From: Cyanodermella asteris
Lineage: Eukaryota > Ascomycota > Lecanoromycetes > Ostropales > Stictidaceae
Reading direction: 5' to 3'
DNA length: 64,000 nt
Assembly: GCA_900618795.1 (NCBI GenBank)
Contig: UYJD01000009.1
Span: forward strand, 186,001-250,000
The position numbers were made by a program, and so were the translations under genes. How positions within the stretch are numbered: position 1 is the first letter of the stretch; every line of letters begins with the position of its first letter. The notes under the pieces were generated by a model. That model was not told where the DNA came from. It saw nothing but the letters and a program-made list of their open reading frames with translations, and did not search any database. This document shows, in pieces, positions 29,395 to 42,782 of this stretch.

Positions 29395-32055
29395 TCATCC
29401 GCCTCTAGCGTAATGACTCGTTCGTGTGAAGAATTTTGCCCCTTCAATGACCTCAGTCTCCCCATTCGCAAAATCCCAGCCCACAATCTTTGGATCCTGG
29501 CTGCAGCATATTATCCTGCGTGCATCAAACTGCAGTTTGAAAGCTCTGGCATTGCCTTGCTGTGCAGCTTGAAGCGCGGTCGCTGCTGCTGCTTGTGCAG
29601 CATGTTGTTGGGCGACGGTCATGTTCTGGAACATATTTGCAGGCATGGGCGGATGGTGGGGGTTGGGAAACTGCTGAGGCTGTTGTTGTTGTATTTGCGG
29701 ATGGACGGCGACGGGATCAGCTTGGGCATTCTGCTGATGTGCGGCTTGTTGATGAACCGCAGATGCAGGCGCTGCTTGCTGTGGTGAGGGCGTCTGACCT
29801 GGCGTATGGTTTTGGACCTGGACTGGCATCGCGCCAGTGCCTTGGTGTGTGGCGGCCGCAAGCCCGGCAGCAGCGCTCGCAGCAGATTGAGTGCTGCCAT
29901 TGCCGTTTGAGGCTGGCCCTGCGGGCGTCGCTGGGGCTGCGGGGGTAGCGTGAGCGGCATGAGGGGGGTTCATGAGCTGCAACTGCTGGGCTCGTTGTCG
30001 ACGTTGTCTTTGCATAGCTACCAGCTCAGAGGTGGCGACGAGGGGAGGACCTGCCGCTCGCAAAGCATCTGTGACTTTGTACCTTTGGCCGACGCTCCAT
30101 CGACCGCCTGGCTCGCGTCTCCATACGATCACCGTCTCATCGTAAGAACCAGACACAATTCGCGACCAGCGATTTCCACCACCTCCAGGCGGCAGCTTTG
30201 CGCCAATGGCGGATTGCAAGGGCGTTGTTTGTCGTCTTCGCCGTCGTTGCCGGCCTTCTTGACGGGCCAGACGATCGTCAATCATCTCATCAATCTGAGC
30301 ATCCAAATATGCCTGGTCAGCGAGCATGGCTTCTTCTTCAAGAGACTCGCGAGTCCCAGGTGCGTCTCCGAAGTCAGCCTGAATGGTTCGCACGAGCTTG
30401 GTGTGGCCATTCAATATACCGACTTGCGCATTGGTAGCGGGATCGAAGACGCGTATAGTTTCATCACTGCTGCCACTGACGAGCCGCGTGCCATCGTACT
30501 CGATGCAAGCAACACCCTTGATATGCATCTTACAGTTCGTCTCGATTGCACCAGTTTTCAAGTTGAAGATCTTGGCAGTGCGGTCGCCTGAACCAGATGC
30601 GAGCTGATCCTGGAAAATGTGCAACGAATTGACAGCAGCACTGTGATGGTCGAGTGTCATGAACAGCGTGTACGGCGCTAAAGGTTCCCTCTGCTCTGGG
30701 CTGAGATAGCGCTCAAAGTCCTCCACCGAATGAAATTGCGACACGTTGATGATGTAGTCCGGGAAGATGCCGCCGCCAGGAACACCTCGTGTGGGATAAT
30801 CCTCATCGCCAGGTTTCACTTGACGTCGATTAAAGATACGGACAAGTCGATCCTTTGAGCAGGTGGCTAGATAGCGTTTGTCGAAGCGTACACAGAGAAC
30901 TGCTTCGCTATGCGCATCTGTGATTTTCTGCAACAGCTTGCCGGTTGAGAACTGCCATATGCCGATGTGGTGGTCACTGCTACCAGACACAATGATATCT
31001 TCCTCGGGAGATTCGTCAAATTGTAAAGACAAAACGGAGCCTGTATGTCCTGTAAGAGGTTTCCTCGCAAGTCGTTGCGTTTCCAGATTCCAGATTCTGA
31101 TGGTCCGATCACGGCTGCCGCTGACCAAGAATTTGTCGGAGAACTGGATCGTGTAGACACACTCACTATGTGCCTCTAATGCATGATCCTTGTGTGGGAA
31201 CTGGAAACTGGTGTATCGTCCCTGCAGCCAATTCTCTTCGAGTTGGGATTTGATTCTATACAACCTTTGATAGTCGAGTCGTGAGTCGCCAGATGGTGTC
31301 TTCACAACCAGGGATCGCGAGTGGGATAGGAGTCGCGGGGTCTGCGTATCGTCTGATAGTTCCGAGCTATTCGTGTTGTACCGTTGAAGGGTCGGCAGCT
31401 GAGGTTCCGTTGGGCTTGTCATTTCCTCGTCCGTCGTCTCTACTTGCGACGGAAGATCGGAGGCCGCCACGCTGCCCGCAGTTGCAACATCGGACGGGAC
31501 GGCATCAATCCTAGATATAGTCGGCGAGACGACTCTCCTCTTCGGTCCTCTCGAATTGGCATCGCTTACAGCTCTGCGCGACAATGGTTTTCTGGTTGCA
31601 GCTCTGCCGTGGTCACGTTCGAATGCTAGCACCTTGGGTATGTTCAAATACCAGCCCTCGTTCAGGAACTTCCGCCGCCAAAGACTTGTATCAAGGACGC
31701 GTTCTCTCCAATGTCTTGCCACCGAAGAAGCGATTACCAGCATCTCTGGCTCGAGGTGCGAGAAGATCTGAGCGGTCAGCTCGGGCGGGAGAAGCGCCAC
31801 AGGATCCAGATGGAGGCGAGGCGTCAACCGCTGGACAATGTCGGCCACGGTCGATGTTCTCAAGCTGTCCAACATGCGGTATGTATGCTCTGCTCTTTCT
31901 TCCTCCGTCAGGCTCAGGAGATGGGCCTCAATTGTACGCACATCCTGCCTTTCGTTCTCGGAAGTGTGCCCCATGTTCATGTCAGAGTCTTGACCAGCCT
32001 GATCCATGGGGGCTTCGGAATAGCCTTCGTCGACTTGGGAATCGCGGAAGGCCAT
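29395..32055 (-). CDS. F-box/WD40-repeat protein
   Basis: Single exon, 886 residues from ATG 32055; upstream in-frame sequence opens only with a TTG. The F-box is near residues 83-130 (LLPPELTAQIFSHLEP, then HWRERVLDTSLWRRKF). WD40 repeats begin near 310: HSECVYTIQFSDKFLVSGSR, DRTIRIWNLETQ, GHTGSVLSLQF, SDHHIGIW, KDRLVRIF, HHSAAVNSLHIF, GDRTAKIFNLKTG, SDETIRVFDP, GHTKLVRTI, YDETVIVWRRE. The last blade appears split: an Ala/Gln/Pro-rich insert of about 150 residues precedes IICCSQDPKIVGWDF near the C terminus. Known F-box/WD40 proteins (Cdc4, Met30, Pof1/Pof11) are SCF substrate receptors recognising phosphorylated partners. I cannot decide which one this corresponds to. It shares its upstream region with CDC24. 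Confidence 0.9.
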   Translation of the reverse strand: MAFRDSQVDEGYSEAPMDQAGQDSDMNMGHTSENERQDVRTIEAHLLSLTEEERAEHTYRMLDSLRTSTVADIVQRLTPRLHLDPVALLPPELTAQIFSHLEPEMLVIASSVARHWRERVLDTSLWRRKFLNEGWYLNIPKVLAFERDHGRAATRKPLSRRAVSDANSRGPKRRVVSPTISRIDAVPSDVATAGSVAASDLPSQVETTDEEMTSPTEPQLPTLQRYNTNSSELSDDTQTPRLLSHSRSLVVKTPSGDSRLDYQRLYRIKSQLEENWLQGRYTSFQFPHKDHALEAHSECVYTIQFSDKFLVSGSRDRTIRIWNLETQRLARKPLTGHTGSVLSLQFDESPEEDIIVSGSSDHHIGIWQFSTGKLLQKITDAHSEAVLCVRFDKRYLATCSKDRLVRIFNRRQVKPGDEDYPTRGVPGGGIFPDYIINVSQFHSVEDFERYLSPEQREPLAPYTLFMTLDHHSAAVNSLHIFQDQLASGSGDRTAKIFNLKTGAIETNCKMHIKGVACIEYDGTRLVSGSSDETIRVFDPATNAQVGILNGHTKLVRTIQADFGDAPGTRESLEEEAMLADQAYLDAQIDEMIDDRLARQEGRQRRRRRQTTPLQSAIGAKLPPGGGGNRWSRIVSGSYDETVIVWRREPGGRWSVGQRYKVTDALRAAGPPLVATSELVAMQRQRRQRAQQLQLMNPPHAAHATPAAPATPAGPASNGNGSTQSAASAAAGLAAATHQGTGAMPVQVQNHTPGQTPSPQQAAPASAVHQQAAHQQNAQADPVAVHPQIQQQQPQQFPNPHHPPMPANMFQNMTVAQQHAAQAAAATALQAAQQGNARAFKLQFDARRIICCSQDPKIVGWDFANGETEVIEGAKFFTRTSHYARGG
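29560..29990 (-). repeat. Gln/Ala/Pro low-complexity insert in the WD40 protein
   Basis: CAG/CTG- and GCN-rich codons encode stretches of Ala, Gln, His and Pro between the last recognisable WD strand pair and the C-terminal WD motif. Imperfect repeats of CAA/CAG and GCA are visible. Such tracts vary between isolates and lie as loops outside the propeller. Confidence 0.75.
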
Positions 32056-33957
32056 GTTCAGGGTTTCGCTTCGTCCTTGTTGCACCGTCGCGTAGGATGT
32101 GTGTTCAAACCGGGGCTGTCAGAGGGCTGACAATTGTTGGTGTAGTCTTGCTTCCACCCATGTCCGAAAATTTCAGTACACCTGCATATACCGCGTCAGC
32201 CAGAAGCAGGAGGTAGAGGATGCAGGTCGTGAAGCAGAGAGGAAGCTCCCAAAGACGTTAGACGCCGCGGCGGCAGACGGTAGACATGCGGTGACCCATG
32301 GTATCGGAAGCCTGGTCAGTGCACGCTCCCAGCGCTAGCGTAAGTGGAGAAGCGGCATTGGGAAGATGGACGAGGGCTGTCAAGAGTTGCCTCTCTCTTA
32401 CCTGCAGAAAAGGATCTCGGTGCGACTTCAAATAGTGGCCACAATAGATGTCGGCTGCGCGAAGCCGTTGTATGGAAGCTGGTCAAAGCTGCCGAGGGTG
32501 AGCGAAGCGCCGATCTGATGTCAGGGCAGATTCCGACAGCAAGACATGCAGCTCTCGGTATCGATTTCTCATGCAGCGCGATGGCCCGGCAGCTTGGGAT
32601 ACTGTCTTGCCGTCTGCTCTGTGTTGTATGGTGCTGGGACGCTGTTTCCAAGCTTCCTTCTTCTCCGCGATTGCAGTGCGGAAGGCGGAAAAAAACTCCG
32701 CCAGGGTCCAACAGCGACCAGGGGATCTTGAGACGTATCGCAGTACTGTAAGTATCTAAAGCATGAGGTTTGGTTGGCTCAACCTGGCTGTCTTCTCATT
32801 CCACAGCCCATACTCACGAAGCGGCCGTGATTTGGAGTTCTCACGAGTGACTCCTCAGTAGTCGCGTTTGGCTCAGAGACCGGTCAATGTAGTTAGAGTC
32901 CCGCCAAACACACGACTATTCTTATACAGTCGCCTCTTATTTTTGCACGCTGTGAGATATATACGTATATATATTCGGAAGCTCCATCAGCGCGTGCACG
33001 GATCGAATTCCGGAACATGTAGAGTCTGAAACACAAATAGAAGCTCAGCTGACATGTATCTCATGGGTTGTGTGAAAGACAAGTTGCAGGATTCGGGGGG
33101 CCGACGTCCTTGCGCAGAATGGGCAGTGGCAGTGTCTGATGTCGGTGTGTGCGACGGGAAGCGGTCGAGGGACACAATATGCATCTGCGCTTCTTGGTGG
33201 TGCAATGAAACATGGGCTGGTCAGGTGTCAGGCCCCCTAGCGTCAGGAGAGGGATGTGGATGTGAACGTGTTCGATCTTATTGCACTCTGCACCCTTTTC
33301 GGCGTCTGGGCGACGCTAAACTCCTTTCTGTGCAGCTGCTACATCTTCCTGCGCCGCCTGCAGCCACCAGCGGGCAGCGCCCTTCTCGCTCCACGGCCGT
33401 CACCAGGCTAGCAAAGATATACTGCCTCCCTCCTCATCGCACACTTCCAGCATCGTCCCCACTCGTCTTGAGATGCCCTCGAACACTCCGTCACCGCCGT
33501 GAGCGCCACCGACTCCTCGCAGACAGCCGTCGCCAGTGCTGCCCACCCCGCCTTGAGATCGACAGGAGCCAGCAATCAGCATCGCAAGCATTAGAGAGCA
33601 TCCAACCAGCCGTCGACCCCGAATCCAGTCGATCCACGTCCAATCACTCCAGCTTCCGTCGACGTCGTGATCTCTCCCTCGCCGACGTCTGCAACACCTC
33701 TGTCGCCATCTGTCGCCTTGACACCGCCTGTCCCCTGCGACACTCGCCCTACCCGGCCCTGCACACAACGACACCAGCCTGACGCTCCTTCTTCCATCCT
33801 GCACGTCGATAGCACAATTACACAACATCAAAGGCTAGTTACGCTACGCTCGCTCGTTTTCTCCACATTCGCAAACTCCCCAAAAGGCTTCACCGATGCG
33901 AGGCGGCGCGCGTTGAAGTTGGGCCGCTGTGCTTAGCCTGCACAACTTTCGAGTCTG
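32056..33957. other. Shared divergent promoter region of F-box/WD40 and CDC24 genes
   Basis: About 1.9 kb between the two divergent start codons. No gene is supported, although a 242-codon frame from 33054 exists with no domain. A 16-bp perfect AT-rich palindrome centred on ACGT lies at 32957-32972. The last 500 bases before CDC24 are pyrimidine-rich and probably a long leader. Confidence 0.5.
32957..32972. repeat. AT-rich 16-bp palindrome
   Basis: ATATATACGTATATAT reads the same on both strands. It sits about 1 kb before CDC24 and 0.9 kb before the WD40 gene. It could be a chance TA repeat or a binding site; nothing further can be said. Confidence 0.45.
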
Positions 33958-36861: not shown

Positions 36862-38118
36862 ATGGGAAAGGGATCCCTTGCAACACATTTTACGCTTGAA
36901 CGACAAGAGCTATCTGTATCCTCATATTTGCTTATCCAACATGTTTACTCTCCAACGCACACGCTGTCAGTCCACGCCGTGTCGGCACAATGAGCCGGTC
37001 ACATATATACCCATCTCGCACGCAACAATTGGTCGCTACTCAGCAAATCTCTTTTGAAGGCATCGCTTGGTGTCCTTTTCTCATTCGAGCGCTGCAGGCG
37101 TTGTCGGCATTCACAGAAACAGGGAGAGGCGGGAAGCGCACGAGTAATGAATTTTCTTGGGGCGTGATTGGCAATGTAGTCCCTCATTTGTGTCTTTCTC
37201 TTGTTTGAGCGGGAATCAGGAGGCAAAAATGAGCAGGCGCAAACCGCTTGCTGCTGGTGTAGATAGGAGACGAAATGCGGAGCGAGAAAATGCATGTTCG
37301 CTTTCATGATCTAGGTCGTTCATGTGACCCGTCGCGTTGAAGTTTCCAAATCAGTGGTTGAAGTGACGTTCGGAAGATACTACCTTAACTGTAATTTCAG
37401 GGCTCGTCGAGCAGTCATAGGAAGTAGGTTATCGCAGGCACGCATTTCACCAGGGCTGGTGACGGCCTAGCGACTGGTGATTGGTCAACTGCGCCACAAA
37501 GTCGCAAGTAAGTCAGTCACGTGATGAATCTGCCTTGGGCCAGGCAGCGGACGAATGAGTCAAAAGCTTCAGTTCTCACATCGCCGCCTCGTGCATCATG
37601 CATCTCCTTTTCGGCTCAACTTCAGCTCGTTCCCTGGGACCTGGCACATTTCTCTATCGACCCCTCATCTTAGTCGCTTGTAATTGGTCTCTTGGCGAGC
37701 AAGGCTGTCACTGATGCTCGTGCCTGAATGTGCTAGACCAGTCCTAATTTGGGTGCCTTGCGTCGACCTTGCAAGGCCAATCTCTATATAGGTAGTAGCC
37801 ATCCTCTTTCCCAGCATCTGTCTCTTTTGTTTTCATCGACTGACAGCCATTGGTCCAAAACTTCATTGCACCTGCCTCGAATACTTCGACATTGCTATCC
37901 TCGGTGGGAGTTTGTCCAAGCTCTTTCATGCCGAGCTCAGAATATCAAATCAAGCTACTCAAATTGCACCTGCCCTGTTGCCTTGGCCGTGTCTGAAAAG
38001 ACCATACATACCCGTCTCCTCCTGACCTCTTTGCTCCTTGATTCATCCATCTCTCATCCTCCCATTACCAGAATCGGTAGCCAACCTGGCGAGAACTAAG
38101 CAGACTGCAAGAGGAGCC
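36862..38118. other. Intergenic/leader before the VIT/vWA gene
   Basis: About 1.26 kb. It holds the 3' flank of CDC24 and the upstream region of the VIT/vWA gene. The final 75 bases stay in frame with the VIT gene without a stop and encode the histone H3-like ARTKQTAR at 38089-38112, so the true coding start may lie in this segment. Confidence 0.6.
38086..38118 (+). other. Possible CTG-initiated extension encoding H3 tail residues 1-8
   Basis: CTG at 38086 is followed in frame by codons for ARTKQTAR-GA and then the first ATG at 38119. The context has A at -3 (38083) and G at +4, good for initiation. Starting here would give Met-Ala-Arg-Thr-Lys-Gln-Thr-Ala-Arg, the exact start of histone H3, and Met removal before Ala would expose Ala1. 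The alternative is an upstream exon spliced into this frame, for example through the CCATTACCAG acceptor at 38071. Neither is proven from sequence. Confidence 0.5.
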
Positions 38119-41100
38119 ATGTCTCGAACTCCGGCGCGCACCGCAGGCTGCTACTTTTGGCAGCCTAGCGGAAATTGGGGCAGCTGGAACCAGCTACCCA
38201 TGGTGGAGTGCAAGGCACATACCGTCATCAAGGGCTCTGCCACTCGCACCCGGTTGAAGCAATACTACAACAACGTCAACTCCAGCGATATCGAGAAATG
38301 CCAGTATGCTTTTCCCTTGTACGATGGCGTGTCTGTCGTTGGTTTCAAATGCCAGATCGGAGCCAAGGTGCTCCAAGGTATTGTCAAGGAGCGCGAGGAA
38401 GCCAAACAGGAGTTTAACAAGGCGGTTGCTGCTGGTGAGAGTGCTGGTCTGATGGAGCAGAGTTTGTCGGCCAGTGACGTCTTCAGCACTACTCTTGGTA
38501 ATATACCCAAGAGCAGCACGGTGATTGTGACCGTTGAGTATATCACCGAACTGAAGCATGACCTCGAGACCGACTCTTTGAAGTTCGAAATGCCAACAGG
38601 TGAGTCTACTGCTCAAGTTGCCGTTATGTTGTACTAACCGCAGTAGGAATCGCACCTCGATACGGTGGATCACAAGACGCTCACCTGTACCCTTGCGAGG
38701 CACATCTCTTGCCCGCAGCGAAGAATTTCGAGTGGACCTGTGACATACATAGTCCGACTGCTATTACCAAAGTTGAATCACCAACCCATGCCGTCTCCGT
38801 CACCCTCGGTCAACTCTCAACTGAGGCCGAGACTGACGAGCCCGACTTCAAGAAATGTTCCGCCAAAATGACAATGCAGAAGGAATCCGGCTTGTCGAAA
38901 GAGCTGATCCTGACGGTCAAGTCCAAGGGTATCAAGGATCTGGTTGCACTTTGGGAGACTCATCCTGAGGTCCCGAACCATAGCGCCCTAATGACCACGC
39001 TCGTACCGAACTTTGCCCTGCCGCAGATCAAACCCGAAGTCGTCTTTGTTTGTGACCGAAGTGGAAGCATGGCTGGCAGTTCGATTACGACGCTTGTGGA
39101 TGCGCTACGAGTTATGCTGCATTCGCTTCCGGCCAACGGCATCAAGTTAAACATCTGCTCTTTCGGATCCCACCATTCGTTCCTCTTCGATAAGAGCCAG
39201 TCGTACACCAAGCAAACCTTGAAACAGGCGTCCGATCACCTCAACAACTTCGGCGCTGACTACGGCGGGATCGAGACCGAGCGACGATTGAGCAACGCTA
39301 TGGCGACATTCCGCTTGAGATCATCCTCCTGACGGACGGCGACATCTGGAGCCAAGAGTCCTTGTTCAACTATCTGAACGAGAAGGTTGCCGAGAGCAAC
39401 AAGCAGATCCGGGTGTTCCCTCTCGGAATCGGCCACGGTGTGTCGTCTGCCCTCATTGAAGGCGTCGCCCGAGCTGGAAGCGGCTTTGCGTCAACAGTCA
39501 TGCCAGGAGAGCGCATGGACCAGCGGTGCATGAGAATGCTCAAGGCGGCCCTGAGTCCCCACATCACCGACTACAAGCTCGAAGTAGTTTATGAGAAGGA
39601 AGGAGAGGATACCTTTGAGATGGTCGAAAGCGTCGAAGAGGCTAGCGAGCTTGCAATCCGCGCAAAGACCACCGAGACGAGCGAGACACCCAAGACGGCC
39701 GAAATCACCAAAAGAAAGAGCGTCGCGAAGAAGGTTATCTCTCTCTTCGACAGCAGCGCCAACGCCGACGACACGAAGGCCGCCGCGGCGAACGCCAACA
39801 TCCCCAAGCTGGATGCACCCAAGATCTTGCAAGCTCCGTTCAATATGCCATCACTGTATTCATTCTCCCGCAGCACTGTTTATTTGATGCTCGGACCCGA
39901 ATCTACCCAGCGAGTGCCCAAGACCGTCGTCTTGAAAGGGAGTCTAGATGGCAATGAGCTCAAGCTCGAGATCCCTGTCATGAACACCGGCAAGTTCCGG
40001 ACCATCCACCAACTCGCAGCTCGACGTGCGGTACAGGATCTAGAAGAAGGTCGCGGTTGGCCGTTCGCTGCAAAGACGGATGACGAGAAGCCGATTCGTG
40101 AAGCTCATCCTAGTTCATTTGATGATGTTGTTAAGGCTGAGGCTGTGCGATTAGGAACTACGTTTCAGGTCATGAACAGATGGTGCTCGTACGTGGCTCG
40201 TGAGCGTGCTGCTCGTAAGTCCAAGTCTTGCCAACATAATAACCTCTCTCAACCAAGCAGTTCCATTGACTTAAGCGCAGATGATAAGAAGTCCAAGGGC
40301 AAGATGGATATCGATCAACCCCACGCCCACGGTGGCGGTGATGCAATCGCCTCCGAGGCGGATCAATCATACGACAGCGACGAAAGCAACGACAACATGG
40401 GATTTGGTCTCTTCGACTACGACGACGACGACGACTCAGTGCTCATCGGCCAGCCCAGCAACAGTCCCGCTGTCGGATCTCCCCAGAATGTATCAATGAG
40501 GGCCCCGCGCAAACAGCTCGCCTCGAAAGCTGCGAGAATGGCAGCACCTGTAAGTGATACCCCTCTTTCCTCTGTTTTTGATTCCAGTTCTCTTTCTCAC
40601 GGCCAGCCGCCCCCTCCTTATTCTCGCAACGCCGGGTCAGTCCTTTCAACATCGCAAGGCCGACGAGTACCGTCACGGATGGCGGGGAAACAGCCGATGG
40701 CTCTGTCTATGGCTGCGCCTCAAGGAATGGACTACGGCACTGTGAGCAGCTATAGTGCGCCTCCTCCGCCTCCGGACTCCGCCTCCAACTCGGAATACAG
40801 GCCTTCGCTCAACGATTCGAGGAACGAACTGCCTCGCAAGCTTTCACTACTACCTACCCGGGGGGCGTCTGACAATGTTGTCTCTCCTCCAGGAGCTGAT
40901 TCTGGCGCATCACCCAGTGGCCACGCGAGGAAGATTCCTTTTTTGAAAGCAGCGGGACGACAGATGGAGAAAGCCTTTGGCCGCAACTCGACTCACACAT
41001 TTCAACAGGTCACCTCTGGAAGCGGACTCTTTGGCGGACCTGCCATTGCAAAGACCGGGACCGGAATGCAGCCGCAGGCGCAGCAACAGCAGGTGCAACA

Positions 41101-42782
41101 GCGCCAGGGAGCTGGCTTGTTCGGAGGAGGCCAACAAAGCCCGCCCCCACTATTTGGAACTGCTGCAACAACTCAGGCAATACCGTCGTTATTTGGATCC
41201 TCTGAACCGACGGCGAGTCCCTTCCAACAACAGCGAGCAGTGCCACAGATGCACGGCTCTGGACTATTTGGGGGGCCTTCCCGAAGCTCGCCGTCGCCGT
41301 TTACAACTACTGCGACAGCCCCTCAGGGACCCCAAAACCCGTTTGCCACTTCCGCATTCTCTGCGAATTTCCAACAGCAGCAACGATCGATATTTGGCCA
41401 GGCATCCGGCTCTAGCCCAGCGCCAGGTCAAGCGTCGCTTTTTGGGGTTGTACAGGACTCATCAGTCTTTATTGAAACAACACCTAAGGTAAGTGCCCAC
41501 CGCGAAAGCATTGGATTTATCATCAAATATATCTCGGATCCCCAAATCTCGTCACTATTCCCGGTCTTTGGTTCCTGCGCGTTCTCGTTCCTCGTTCCTC
41601 GTTTTTCCAACCAGTTCTCCTGGATTTTGATCCCTGGCTCCCAAATCCTCATCGTTCCTCTCGGTGAAATCCTCAGCAATCTCCCATCGTGGCACTTACA
41701 GTTCATGTGAGCAGAACAAATGCTTATATGATTTCTTGCAGGTTCCGCTGCCTCCACCCGCTCCAGCATCTAACTTTCTCGGAGGGGGAGACTTGGACTT
41801 CGCGTCCATGGAAGCCGGGGATGTCCTCGATCAGTTCGATTTCGAGGCTTTCATCGAGGATGGCAATCAAAACCCCGATAACTTTACCTTTGATATGAGC
41901 GATTTCGACGGGGCCGGAGCAGACGGGTGCGAAGAGGTCCTAAAGGAGGAGAAGGTGGAGTCTAACGAAGAATACTTGGGCGATGGCTTTGACAACTTCG
42001 ACGAGCGACCCAGAACGATGGTGGATCAACAGGCGCAAGAGATACAATGCTCTATGGCGCCGCCAAACGTGGCCCACCAAGCGGTAGCAGTACAACGCTC
42101 TTCGGCACCGGACAAGTCACAGCGCACACCCGTGGAGAGCACTGGAGTCGATCGTAACAGGGATCATGTAACAGAATTGAGTGATGATGGTGCTAACCTA
42201 CGTGTTTCACAGAGTAGCGCACCGGTTCGTGATATGGTCCGCGGCCAAGGCAGAGGCGGCCAATTCAGACAAAGGACTGCCGACGCAGGTCGCGGAGGTT
42301 TCGCTGGGGGACCCTTGGGCAGTTTCGGCGGCGCGGTAGCGGCCAGCACTCGGCCCCTCAAGGTCAAAAAGGAAGCCAGAGATTTCGACATGGGCGGGGG
42401 CGTAGAGCATCCGATGGCTGCCAAACCCAGGCCGACCCCCGTCCCGACGTTTGCTGACGATGCGTCGCGTGTCCGGTTCTTGATCTCGCTGCAAGCATTC
42501 GATGGCAGTTTCGAGACGAGTGGTGATGCGCACGCAACGCTCGCGAACGTTTTGGGGATTGAGAAAGAGAAGGTCACCACGGATCCGGGGGTCAAGGGGG
42601 CGGATGAGACGGCTTGGGTGACGGCGCTGGTGTTGGCGTACCTTGAGCTCAAGATGATTTCGGAGAAGGACGTTTGGGAGATGAGTGCCGAGAAGGCAAA
42701 GACTTGGTTGGTGGAGTTTGCGGCTGAGAAGGGGATGGATTTGAAGGAGTTGTTGCAGAAAGCGGAGGAGGCGCTCAAGTGA
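38119..42782 (+). CDS. VIT/vWA domain protein with histone H3-like segments and LFG repeats
   Basis: Exons seen: 38119..38599, 38647..about 39283, a frame change without splice signals, about 39283..40214, 40281..41488 and 41742..42782; about 1430 residues. A further 57-nt intron 40550..40606 (GTAAGT donor) is optional. The N-terminal VIT domain (YFWQPSGNWGSWNQLPMVEC to EYITELKHDLE) is followed by a vWA domain with the metal-binding DRSGSMAGSS and, in the second frame, YGDIPLEIILLTDGDIW. VIT plus vWA occurs in inter-alpha-trypsin inhibitor heavy chains and in vault PARP4; here there is no signal peptide, so it is intracellular. Then come an acidic patch (DYDDDDD), the H3 segment APRKQLASKAAR (40502-40537), LFG/GLFG repeats (41020-41455), and a conserved helical C terminus (VRFLISLQAFDGSFE, then WVTALVLAYLEL) like PARP4-type ends. 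The function is unknown. The frame break means either a damaged gene or a sequence error. Confidence 0.78.
38600..38646 (+). other. Intron of the VIT/vWA gene
   Basis: 47 nt, donor GTGAGT, perfect TACTAAC branch sequence ending 12 nt before the AG at 38646. It joins EMPT to GIAPRYGG in phase. Confidence 0.9.
39270..39320 (+). other. Frame discontinuity inside the vWA domain
   Basis: The first frame reads NNFGADYGGIETE and then diverges to a stop at 39330. The -1 frame picks up as RATIEQRYGDIPLEI and stays open for about 780 codons. In relatives of this fold GGTE is followed after about six residues by a strand of the type RRYxDxPLEILLLTDG, so a small deletion of roughly ten bases would explain it. 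No GT-AG pair fits and no slippery heptamer is visible. Confidence 0.7.
41010..41460 (+). repeat. Coding LFG/GLFG-type repeats
   Basis: Six to seven spaced motifs in the VIT/vWA protein: SGLFGGP, GAGLFGGG, PPLFGTA, PSLFGSS, SGLFGGP, RSIFGQA and ASLFGVV, separated by Gln/Ser/Pro/Thr-rich spacers. This is the pattern of nucleoporin FG domains that bind transport receptors. The repeats are protein-level and not a DNA satellite. Confidence 0.8.
41489..41741 (+). other. Long last intron of the VIT/vWA gene
   Basis: 253 nt, donor GTAAGT, acceptor TTCTTGCAG. It is longer than the other introns in the window and joins ETTPK to VPLPPPAPAS in frame. The first frame stays open almost to the end of it, so intron retention would give a shorter protein ending near 41710. 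Confidence 0.75.

Follow-up and report, generated by a model that had tools for sequence, protein, structure and literature searches.

The locus raises the question of why a gene for a VIT/vWA protein should encode two pieces of the tail of histone H3. The window, that is, the whole stretch of 64,000 nucleotides of Cyanodermella asteris DNA that was analysed, was translated, and both H3 segments were found within one gene in which a VIT domain is followed by a vWA domain (PF08487, then VWA_3 in two frames). The gene is a member of a VIT/vWA family found in filamentous Ascomycota and, as the sole PF08487 match in the 28.5 Mb genome, is the only VIT-domain gene of its host. Its features are as follows.

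38086..38088, + strand: CTG immediately 5′ of the N-terminal H3 segment, flanked by A (−3) and G (+4); putative start codon
38089..38112, + strand: N-terminal H3 segment ARTKQTAR (H3 residues 1–8)
38119..38121, + strand: first ATG in the ARTKQTAR frame; a start there gives MSRTPARTAG and excludes the H3 segment
38086..38599, + strand: exon 1, with the N-terminal segment and the VIT domain; splice sites by eye and frame
38203–38541, + strand: VIT domain PF08487, profile match of 109.9 bits
38600..38643, + strand: intron 1, GTGAGT...CGCAG; by eye and frame
39036..39493, + strand: vWA domain in two frames, with a break near 39275–39283
40215..40280, + strand: intron ahead of the exon with the internal segment; by eye and frame
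40502..40549, + strand: internal H3 segment APRKQLASKAARMAAP, H3 15–30 with K27M, up to the intron donor
40550..40606, + strand: intron immediately 3′ of the internal H3 segment; by eye and frame
40980..41470 (approximate), + strand: linker with FG-nucleoporin-like GLFG/SLFG repeats
41742..42782, + strand: last exon, with a conserved C-terminal domain at approximately 42466–42779

As the initial annotation had proposed, ARTKQTAR (38089–38112) is in frame with the VIT domain (38203–38541). It does not touch the first ATG as described there: two codons lie between the segment and the ATG at 38119, and the adjoining codon is CTG. Comparison of the proteins places this CTG (38086–38088) at the first Met of the annotated proteins of relatives, in which (A/V)RTK follows the Met, and the CTG may serve as the start codon in the window gene. 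The second, exact segment reported for the same gene is also present, APRKQLASKAAR being encoded at 40502–40537; the next four residues are MAAP, and the intron donor follows at 40550. When the internal segment was aligned with residues 15–30 of the host's own H3, APRKQLASKAARKAAP, 15 of the 16 residues were identical and the sole difference was the replacement of K27 by Met; Ala stands at position 28 in both sequences.

The 28.5 Mb genome was searched with codon-degenerate patterns. The 23-base pattern for ARTKQTAR had exactly two matches, one in the window gene and one in the H3 gene, and its reversed control had none. The pattern for PRKQLA gave 10 matches (three for the reversed control), only two of which continue in an H3-like manner, again those in the window gene and the H3 gene. 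With reversed H3, the maximum score against the first 120 proteins was 49, inside the shuffle range (maximum 54). The pattern counts and their reversed controls bear out the earlier statement that the two matches exceed chance, and a chance origin of the segments was ruled out by the genome-wide counts together with the shuffles. A 40-residue H3-tail query against the host genome, at E values up to 10, found only the H3 gene; it also missed the window segment, so the empty result is no evidence against further copies.

The initial annotation had asked whether the DNA flanking the segments matches a copy of an H3 gene. The flanks agree with host H3 only at chance level (12/60, 11/60 and 16/60), and codons are shared at two of the seven N-terminal and five of the 15 internal identical residues. 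These comparisons of codons and flanks rule out a recent H3 insertion or gene conversion. Fusions to H3 were also rejected as the source of the hits, since the listed proteins showed no histone domain (44-residue query, 24 candidates scored, 13 proteins listed). Nine of these 13 have VIT/vWA domains and four are Fusarium proteins without a precomputed Pfam domain, two of which were rescanned for domains.

Among the relatives, 205 proteins were examined, and in 88 of these the H3 15–31 segment outscored each of the 10250 shuffles; the prevalence is inflated for a further 84 of the proteins because the query that retrieved them contained the segment. A Trichoderma harzianum protein, P0116, has H3 5–31. 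We place the proteins with the segment in what we take to be five classes of Ascomycota. A tail profile found 95 of 207 proteins (shuffled maximum 4.1 bits), 70 of which match by construction as it was built from 70 of the 88 tails. All 30 proteins with an H3-like N-terminus also have the internal segment, which occurs in 58 of the 175 others. The N-terminal copies keep R2 in 30/30 and K4 in 27/30, and annotated fungal N-termini include MVRTNQPAR and MARTKQTAR. Residues 2–8 of H3 are kept in the internal copy of 3/30 proteins with an N-terminal copy, in contrast to 35/58 without one. Eight proteins have tandem copies of the H3 tail, although the second copy is weak in P0137. The open-access literature matches listed, covered as titles and the starts of abstracts, gave no report of H3-tail copies in VIT/vWA proteins.

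For 70 representatives, the mean pairwise identity was 0.75 in the segment and 0.07 in the flanks; the segment is therefore conserved across species despite diverged flanks. Both segments are conserved across genera, as the initial annotation had proposed to check, and because they are found in relatives the oddity of the window becomes a trait of the family. Its other concern, that relatives might have the vWA gene without the segments, was partly justified: among the best 120 homologues, which form the first sample, 99 do not carry the segment at the shuffle-based threshold. On a FastTree tree, presence and absence require at least 21 state changes, and the segment was thus frequently gained or lost. 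Our comparisons show that the segments are real and recurrent, lie within an unconserved linker and are selectively kept. Of the proposal of a histone mimic, the mimicry itself is strongly supported by the conservation across genera and the non-H3 flanks. To our knowledge, the histone mimics described so far are mostly short and come from viruses, bacteria or mammals; near-complete H3 tails are a recurrent feature of the fungal family. Intracellular proteins such as VWA5A and Dictyostelium Vwa1 also combine VIT and vWA, and many have a conserved C-terminal domain; the fungal family differs in its H3 segments and FG repeats, neither of which is mentioned in the available part of PMC10539598.

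The lysines of the tails behave differently from the other residues. P16, R17, L20, A21, S22, A24, R26 and P30 are kept in the internal segment, whereas the lysines are preferentially exchanged for Met or Arg. Changes to Met were counted at 28/97 for the segment lysines compared to 6/414 for other lysine columns; the corresponding tree-based counts were 31/143 and, for other lysines of these proteins, 8/552. Only 15 of the 88 tails have K9, K14, K18, K23 and K27 all intact, and 60 have no Met at any of these five positions. K14 is retained in 33/88, K18 in 71/88 and K23 in 68/88. Met is most frequent at K14 and is also seen at 9, 18 and 23, with Met at 27 in three tails. The Met may simply be a neutral isostere of lysine.

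Near-exact copies of the H3 tail in non-histone proteins suggest an imitation of H3 that would engage readers or writers of chromatin marks. The explanation that we favour, to which we give about an even chance, is selected mimicry, in which the VIT/vWA scaffold would carry an unmodifiable H3-tail decoy or bait. In many members, H3 1–8 stands at the N-terminus of the protein, where removal of the Met would free it, or H3 up to 1–40, most strictly 15–31, stands in the linker that follows the vWA part, or both; the segments would engage H3-tail-binding proteins. The N-terminal part, which keeps K4, could offer its ARTK end to readers of the N-terminus. The internal part would most likely be an unmodifiable H3 tail because its other residues are kept and its lysines are exchanged, with Met and Arg preferred. 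Placed beyond modification in this way, it may serve as a decoy or pseudosubstrate to which an H3-tail enzyme or reader stays bound, much as SET methyltransferases are held by K-to-M histones. We know of no well-known fungal methyltransferase that targets K14, and a simple SET trap therefore fails to explain all sites. That relatives without the segment are common, that gain or loss was frequent and that the window copy looks damaged all weigh against the functional part of the proposal, the putative binding or titration of readers, writers or chaperones of H3.

Inhibition of methyltransferases by K-to-M peptides is described in PMC6513997, as is EZHIP/CXORF67 of mammals, also a non-histone that carries a K27M-like H3 peptide. 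In the window the sequence is AARMAAP, in which an Arg stands before the Met at H3 position 27, as in EZHIP. The fungal tails differ from EZHIP in having Met at 27 in only 3/88, and more often at 14, and in a far longer match to H3. H3 K-to-M oncohistones share the lysine-to-methionine change in the H3 tail, but the fungal proteins are non-histones in which no histone fold adjoins the segment. The host genome encodes a SUZ12-type VEFS domain as well as SET proteins recognised by eye as E(z)-like, SUV39/DIM-5-like, SET1-like and SET2-like. Given K27M in the window and the genome-encoded parts of PRC2, an EZHIP-like action on PRC2 is possible if the window copy is expressed. More tentatively, and rather against our expectation, filamentous Ascomycota could have evolved a non-histone H3 tail, recurrent throughout a protein family, whose lysines were edited to Met by selection, a natural counterpart of the K-to-M oncohistones. 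One or two copies on the VIT/vWA scaffold, often with a free ARTK N-terminus, would hold or poison H3-tail enzymes, and some lineages might use a non-AUG start. The lysine-to-methionine bias leads to a prediction on unmodifiable H3 decoys that can be put to the test; if it holds, many fungi would have natural inhibitors or scaffolds of the H3 machinery, and the family would be a ready tool for finding binders of H3 15–31.

Functionless pieces of an H3 gene, captured neutrally by exon shuffling, could explain why the MARTKQTAR end coincides with the end of host H3 exon 1, within codon 8, and why some relatives hold H3 1–40 or 2–40. A segment identity of 75%, compared to 7% in the flanks, presence across many genera and non-random changes from lysine to Met make this very improbable. 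PAF15/PCLAF, a small PCNA-binding protein of animals, offers a different precedent. It is also a non-histone with an ARTK-like end and an internal H3-like lysine segment; according to PMC7060239 and PMC8034647 its N-terminal VRTK is read by the UHRF1 PHD like the ARTK of H3, and two lysines spaced as in H3 are ubiquitylated. By analogy, a PHD-type module could read the fungal ARTK, and modification, such as ubiquitylation, of the lysines of the internal APRK...SK could recruit chromatin factors. The MVRTNQPAR and MARTKQTAR N-termini, the frequent retention of K18 and K23, two SRA-domain matches in the host genome and a DNMT1-RFD match there that is weak but over the cut-off (27.4 bits) are in keeping with such a recruiter. 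However, modification-based recruitment should keep the lysines, which are often lost, often to Met, with K14 remaining in only 33/88 tails, and we regard a recruiter as rather unlikely. The fungal proteins also differ from PAF15 in being large VIT/vWA proteins with longer and more exact copies of H3 (up to 1–40). Less likely still than a recruiter is a nuclear localisation signal of the H3 type, which karyopherins would bind and which would act with the FG repeats of the probably disordered linker. H3 1–28 is such a signal, and Kap123 binds it through K14 and K23, according to PMC5677370. FG dipeptides number 734 in the linkers of 202 proteins (212 expected from composition). The precomputed Pfam lists of some members include PF13634, which we take to be Nucleoporin FG. 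These Kap123 anchors are nevertheless often changed, the FG repeats are equally common without the segment (mean 3.9, n = 117) and with it (3.3, n = 85), and a localisation signal needs neither the exact H3 sequence nor a free ARTK end.

A further alternative concerns only the window gene, which may be a recent pseudogene or contain assembly errors, so that K27M and CTG would be neutral and the mimicry real only in the relatives; we consider this plausible, though somewhat short of probable. The reading frame is not intact. A split in the intervening vWA domain places the two H3 segments, as assembled, in different frames, with VWA_3 profile positions 2–94 in one frame and 87–154 in another; comparison with relatives' proteins puts the break near 39275–39283, where about 13 bases fewer are present. 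Only 89 of 101 nearly invariant residues are kept, the second lowest count of 70. Together with the CTG at the expected Met, the broken frame and the lost residues indicate that the copy may be decaying, and given the broken frame and the lack of an ATG before ARTKQTAR, K27M may here be neutral decay. Four other Pfam-domain genes of the window (flippase, PrpF, MFS and CDC24) each lie in one open frame, and broken frames are therefore not a general fault of the assembly. Against a pseudogene or an assembly error, there is a single frame break over about 4.3 kb of exons with no other internal stop, the splice signals at the introns are intact, and the CTG is flanked by an A at −3 and a G at +4. 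ARTKQTAR is kept at 8/8 and the internal segment at 15/16 despite synonymous drift from H3, and the Met at 27 recurs in P0072 and P0035. Decay of the window copy is compatible with the other readings, all of them about the family.

Both H3-tail segments reported by the initial annotation were found in the window's VIT/vWA gene, in the positions listed below.

Features of the VIT/vWA gene (window coordinates)
38089–38112, + strand: codons for ARTKQTAR, in the open frame of the VIT domain
38119: first ATG in the frame of ARTKQTAR
38203–38541: VIT domain PF08487, 109.9 bits
40281–40549: later exon of the same gene, with the internal segment; borders by eye and frame
40502–40537, + strand: codons for APRKQLASKAAR, in this exon
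40550: intron donor after the internal segment, by eye and frame

The N-terminal segment had been described as touching the first ATG, but it lies two codons upstream of it. A CTG (A at −3, G at +4) stands immediately 5′ of the segment, and the window sequence has no in-frame ATG between the preceding stop and ARTKQTAR. The PF08487 match was the only VIT match in a profile search of the genome. With its next four residues the internal segment reads APRKQLASKAARMAAP, compared with APRKQLASKAARKAAP in the host's own histone H3 (locus L001); 15 of 16 residues are identical, K27M being the sole difference. Ala28 is shared with the host H3 but encoded by a different codon (window 40538–40549), whereas most mimic segments (63/77) have Ser28.

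A degenerate 23-base pattern, written for the alternative codons of ARTKQTA and two further bases, was searched in the 28.5 Mb genome. It matched only the window gene and the H3 gene, and the reversed control gave none, in agreement with the earlier claim that the match exceeds chance. A degenerate PRKQLA pattern gave ten matches (three for the reversed control), of which only those in the window gene and H3 had the H3 continuation. The alternative that the flanking DNA derives from a copy of the H3 gene fared less well: only 12, 11 and 16 of 60 flanking bases agree. Codons identical to those of the host H3 numbered 2/7 in the N-terminal and 5/15 in the internal segment, and by codons and flanks alike neither segment has the look of a recent copy of that gene. 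The N-terminal copy (38089–38112) ends where exon 1 of the H3 gene at L001 ends, codon 8 of the latter being split by an intron; this shared end point hints at exon capture.

Relatives were collected by three protein searches. The joined window protein as query gave 1374 family members, the best 120 of which were used. A query of the H3 segment plus the C-terminal domain of one relative gave at least 99 proteins, 84 of them new, and favours segment carriers because it contains the segment. A 44-residue H3-like patch added two VIT/vWA proteins and four others. The earlier proposal to look for the segments across genera was followed by an ungapped scan for H3 15–31 in 205 proteins (204 plus the window), with the maximum of 10250 shuffles as threshold. 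H3 15–31 exceeded all shuffles in 88/205, from many genera: the first search contributed 21 of its best 120 (of 1374), the carrier-favouring second 66 of its 84 new proteins, and the window makes up the total. A profile built from 70 carrier tails matched 95/207 proteins, the 70 by construction. Carriers include Trichoderma, Clonostachys, Xylaria, Nemania, Anthostomella, Thozetella, Diaporthe, Ophiobolus, Lophiotrema, Clohesyomyces, Corynespora, Alternaria, Vermiconidia, Exophiala, Rhinocladiella, a Mollisiaceae species and Xylographa, which we take to represent Sordario-, Dothideo-, Eurotio-, Leotio- and Lecanoromycetes. Carriers and non-carriers occur within one genus (in Exophiala, P0141 with and P0132 without the segment). 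Several relatives hold nearly the whole tail (H3 2–40 in P0159, 1–40 in P0140), and eight have tandem copies in the linker, with two profile matches each (P0188, P0178, P0149, P0156, P0171, P0181, P0155 and P0137, the second being weak in P0137). GLFG/SLFG repeats like those of nucleoporins were seen in the window linker (40980–41470) and in linkers of relatives; across 202 linkers, 734 FG dipeptides were observed against 212 expected. One fungal-type VIT/vWA protein, P0018, is assigned by one source to a Deltaproteobacteria MAG, probably through contamination.

An N-terminus with at least 5/8 residues of ARTKQTAR was present in 30 proteins, 17 of them exact, counting the window with its CTG read as the start; because annotation lets every protein start with Met, non-AUG starts in other members would be missed. 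Among random stretches of 26 residues from the interior of these proteins, 20/4080 reached this level, some being internal H3 copies. R2 was kept in 30/30 and K4 in 27/30. The residue after Met was Ala, Val or Thr in 29/30, and Met is generally removed before such residues; the ARTK-type end would therefore be predicted to be free. With proteins counted singly, regardless of relatedness, the internal segment accompanied 30/30 N-terminal copies compared with 58/175 of the others, and internal residues 2–8, mostly lost where an N-terminal copy exists, were kept in 3/30 compared with 35/58.

Among 77 de-duplicated tails, P16, R17, L20, A21, S22, A24, R26 and P30 were kept in 92–97% and K18, K23 and K27 in 74–79%; K14 (34%) and K9 (23%) were kept less, partly as a result of choosing carriers by 15–31. 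Mean ungapped pairwise identity over 70 representatives was 0.75 in H3 15–31 and 0.07 in the flanks. As A25, S28, A29 and S31 (75–82%) were kept no better than the core lysines, lysine loss as such is not exceptional; what is exceptional is the residue to which the lysines change. Substituted tail lysines became Met in 28/97 cases, compared with 6/414 at lysine columns elsewhere in these proteins. When changes were counted on a FastTree tree built from the VIT/vWA part, those to Met made up 31/143 at tail lysines (K14 13, K9 6, K23 5, K18 4, K27 3), 8/552 at other lysines and 11/211 at non-lysine tail positions 10–31; the Met share of the C-terminal parts is 2.8%. All five lysines were kept in only 15/88 tails; 28/88 had at least one Met at these sites and 60/88 had none.

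Exact H3 sequence recurs in a linker that otherwise varies freely, it stands at two sites of one protein, and its modifiable lysines change in a preferred direction; at the level of sequence this is best explained by selection to pass as an H3 tail while escaping modification. The most likely role would be that of a decoy or pseudosubstrate, H3-like yet spared modification. K-to-M histones are described as methyltransferase inhibitors, and the K27M-like peptide of the non-histone EZHIP as inhibiting PRC2 (PMC6513997); H3K9M is described as holding the SET domain of Clr4 locked to the tail (PMC12407891). Ranked second is a recruiter like PAF15, the closest design to the fungal mimic, whose N-terminal VRTK is described as bound by the UHRF1 PHD like ARTK and which has two ubiquitylated lysines spaced as in H3 (PMC7060239, PMC8034647). 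A karyopherin signal comes third; Kap123 is reported to need K14 and K23 of H3 (PMC5677370), which are often lost in mimic tails. The C. asteris genome has machinery matching the proposed mimicry: a SUZ12-type VEFS box, 19 SET-domain matches (E(z)-, SUV39-, SET1- and SET2-like proteins being recognised by eye), two SRA-domain matches and an RFD-domain match that is weak and lies in an open reading frame where no methyltransferase domain was seen by eye.

The window copy itself keeps 89/101 nearly invariant residues, the second lowest of 70 (133/155 and 195/241 at looser cut-offs), and the vWA domain between its segments is split, with profile positions 2–94 in one frame and 87–154 in another. 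Together with CTG in place of the expected Met, these features are signs of relaxed constraint, of a recent loss or of faults in the assembly; four neighbouring genes that have Pfam domains show no frame break. The H3 segments keep 23/24 residues, no worse than the rest of the protein. K27M may be without function in this copy; the case for mimicry in the family stands independently of it. An F-box/WD40 gene lies ∼6 kb upstream (29398–32118, − strand); a vWFA/VIT protein and a WD40 F-box protein are described as acting together in Dictyostelium (PMC10539598), a likeness that is probably coincidence.

Four Fusarium proteins of ∼970 residues (P0207–P0210), unrelated to the VIT/vWA family, also hold an H3-tail match. 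One source labels two of them reverse transcriptase domain-containing; no Pfam domain was found in the precomputed list for the four, two of which were rescanned. The P0207 match, an H3 2–38-like segment at residues ∼414–451, covers 37 residues and scores 118, where shuffles reached at most 51; for P0208 the two values are 111 and 46. The occurrence of such a match in a separate family suggests that H3-tail mimicry has arisen more than once in fungi.
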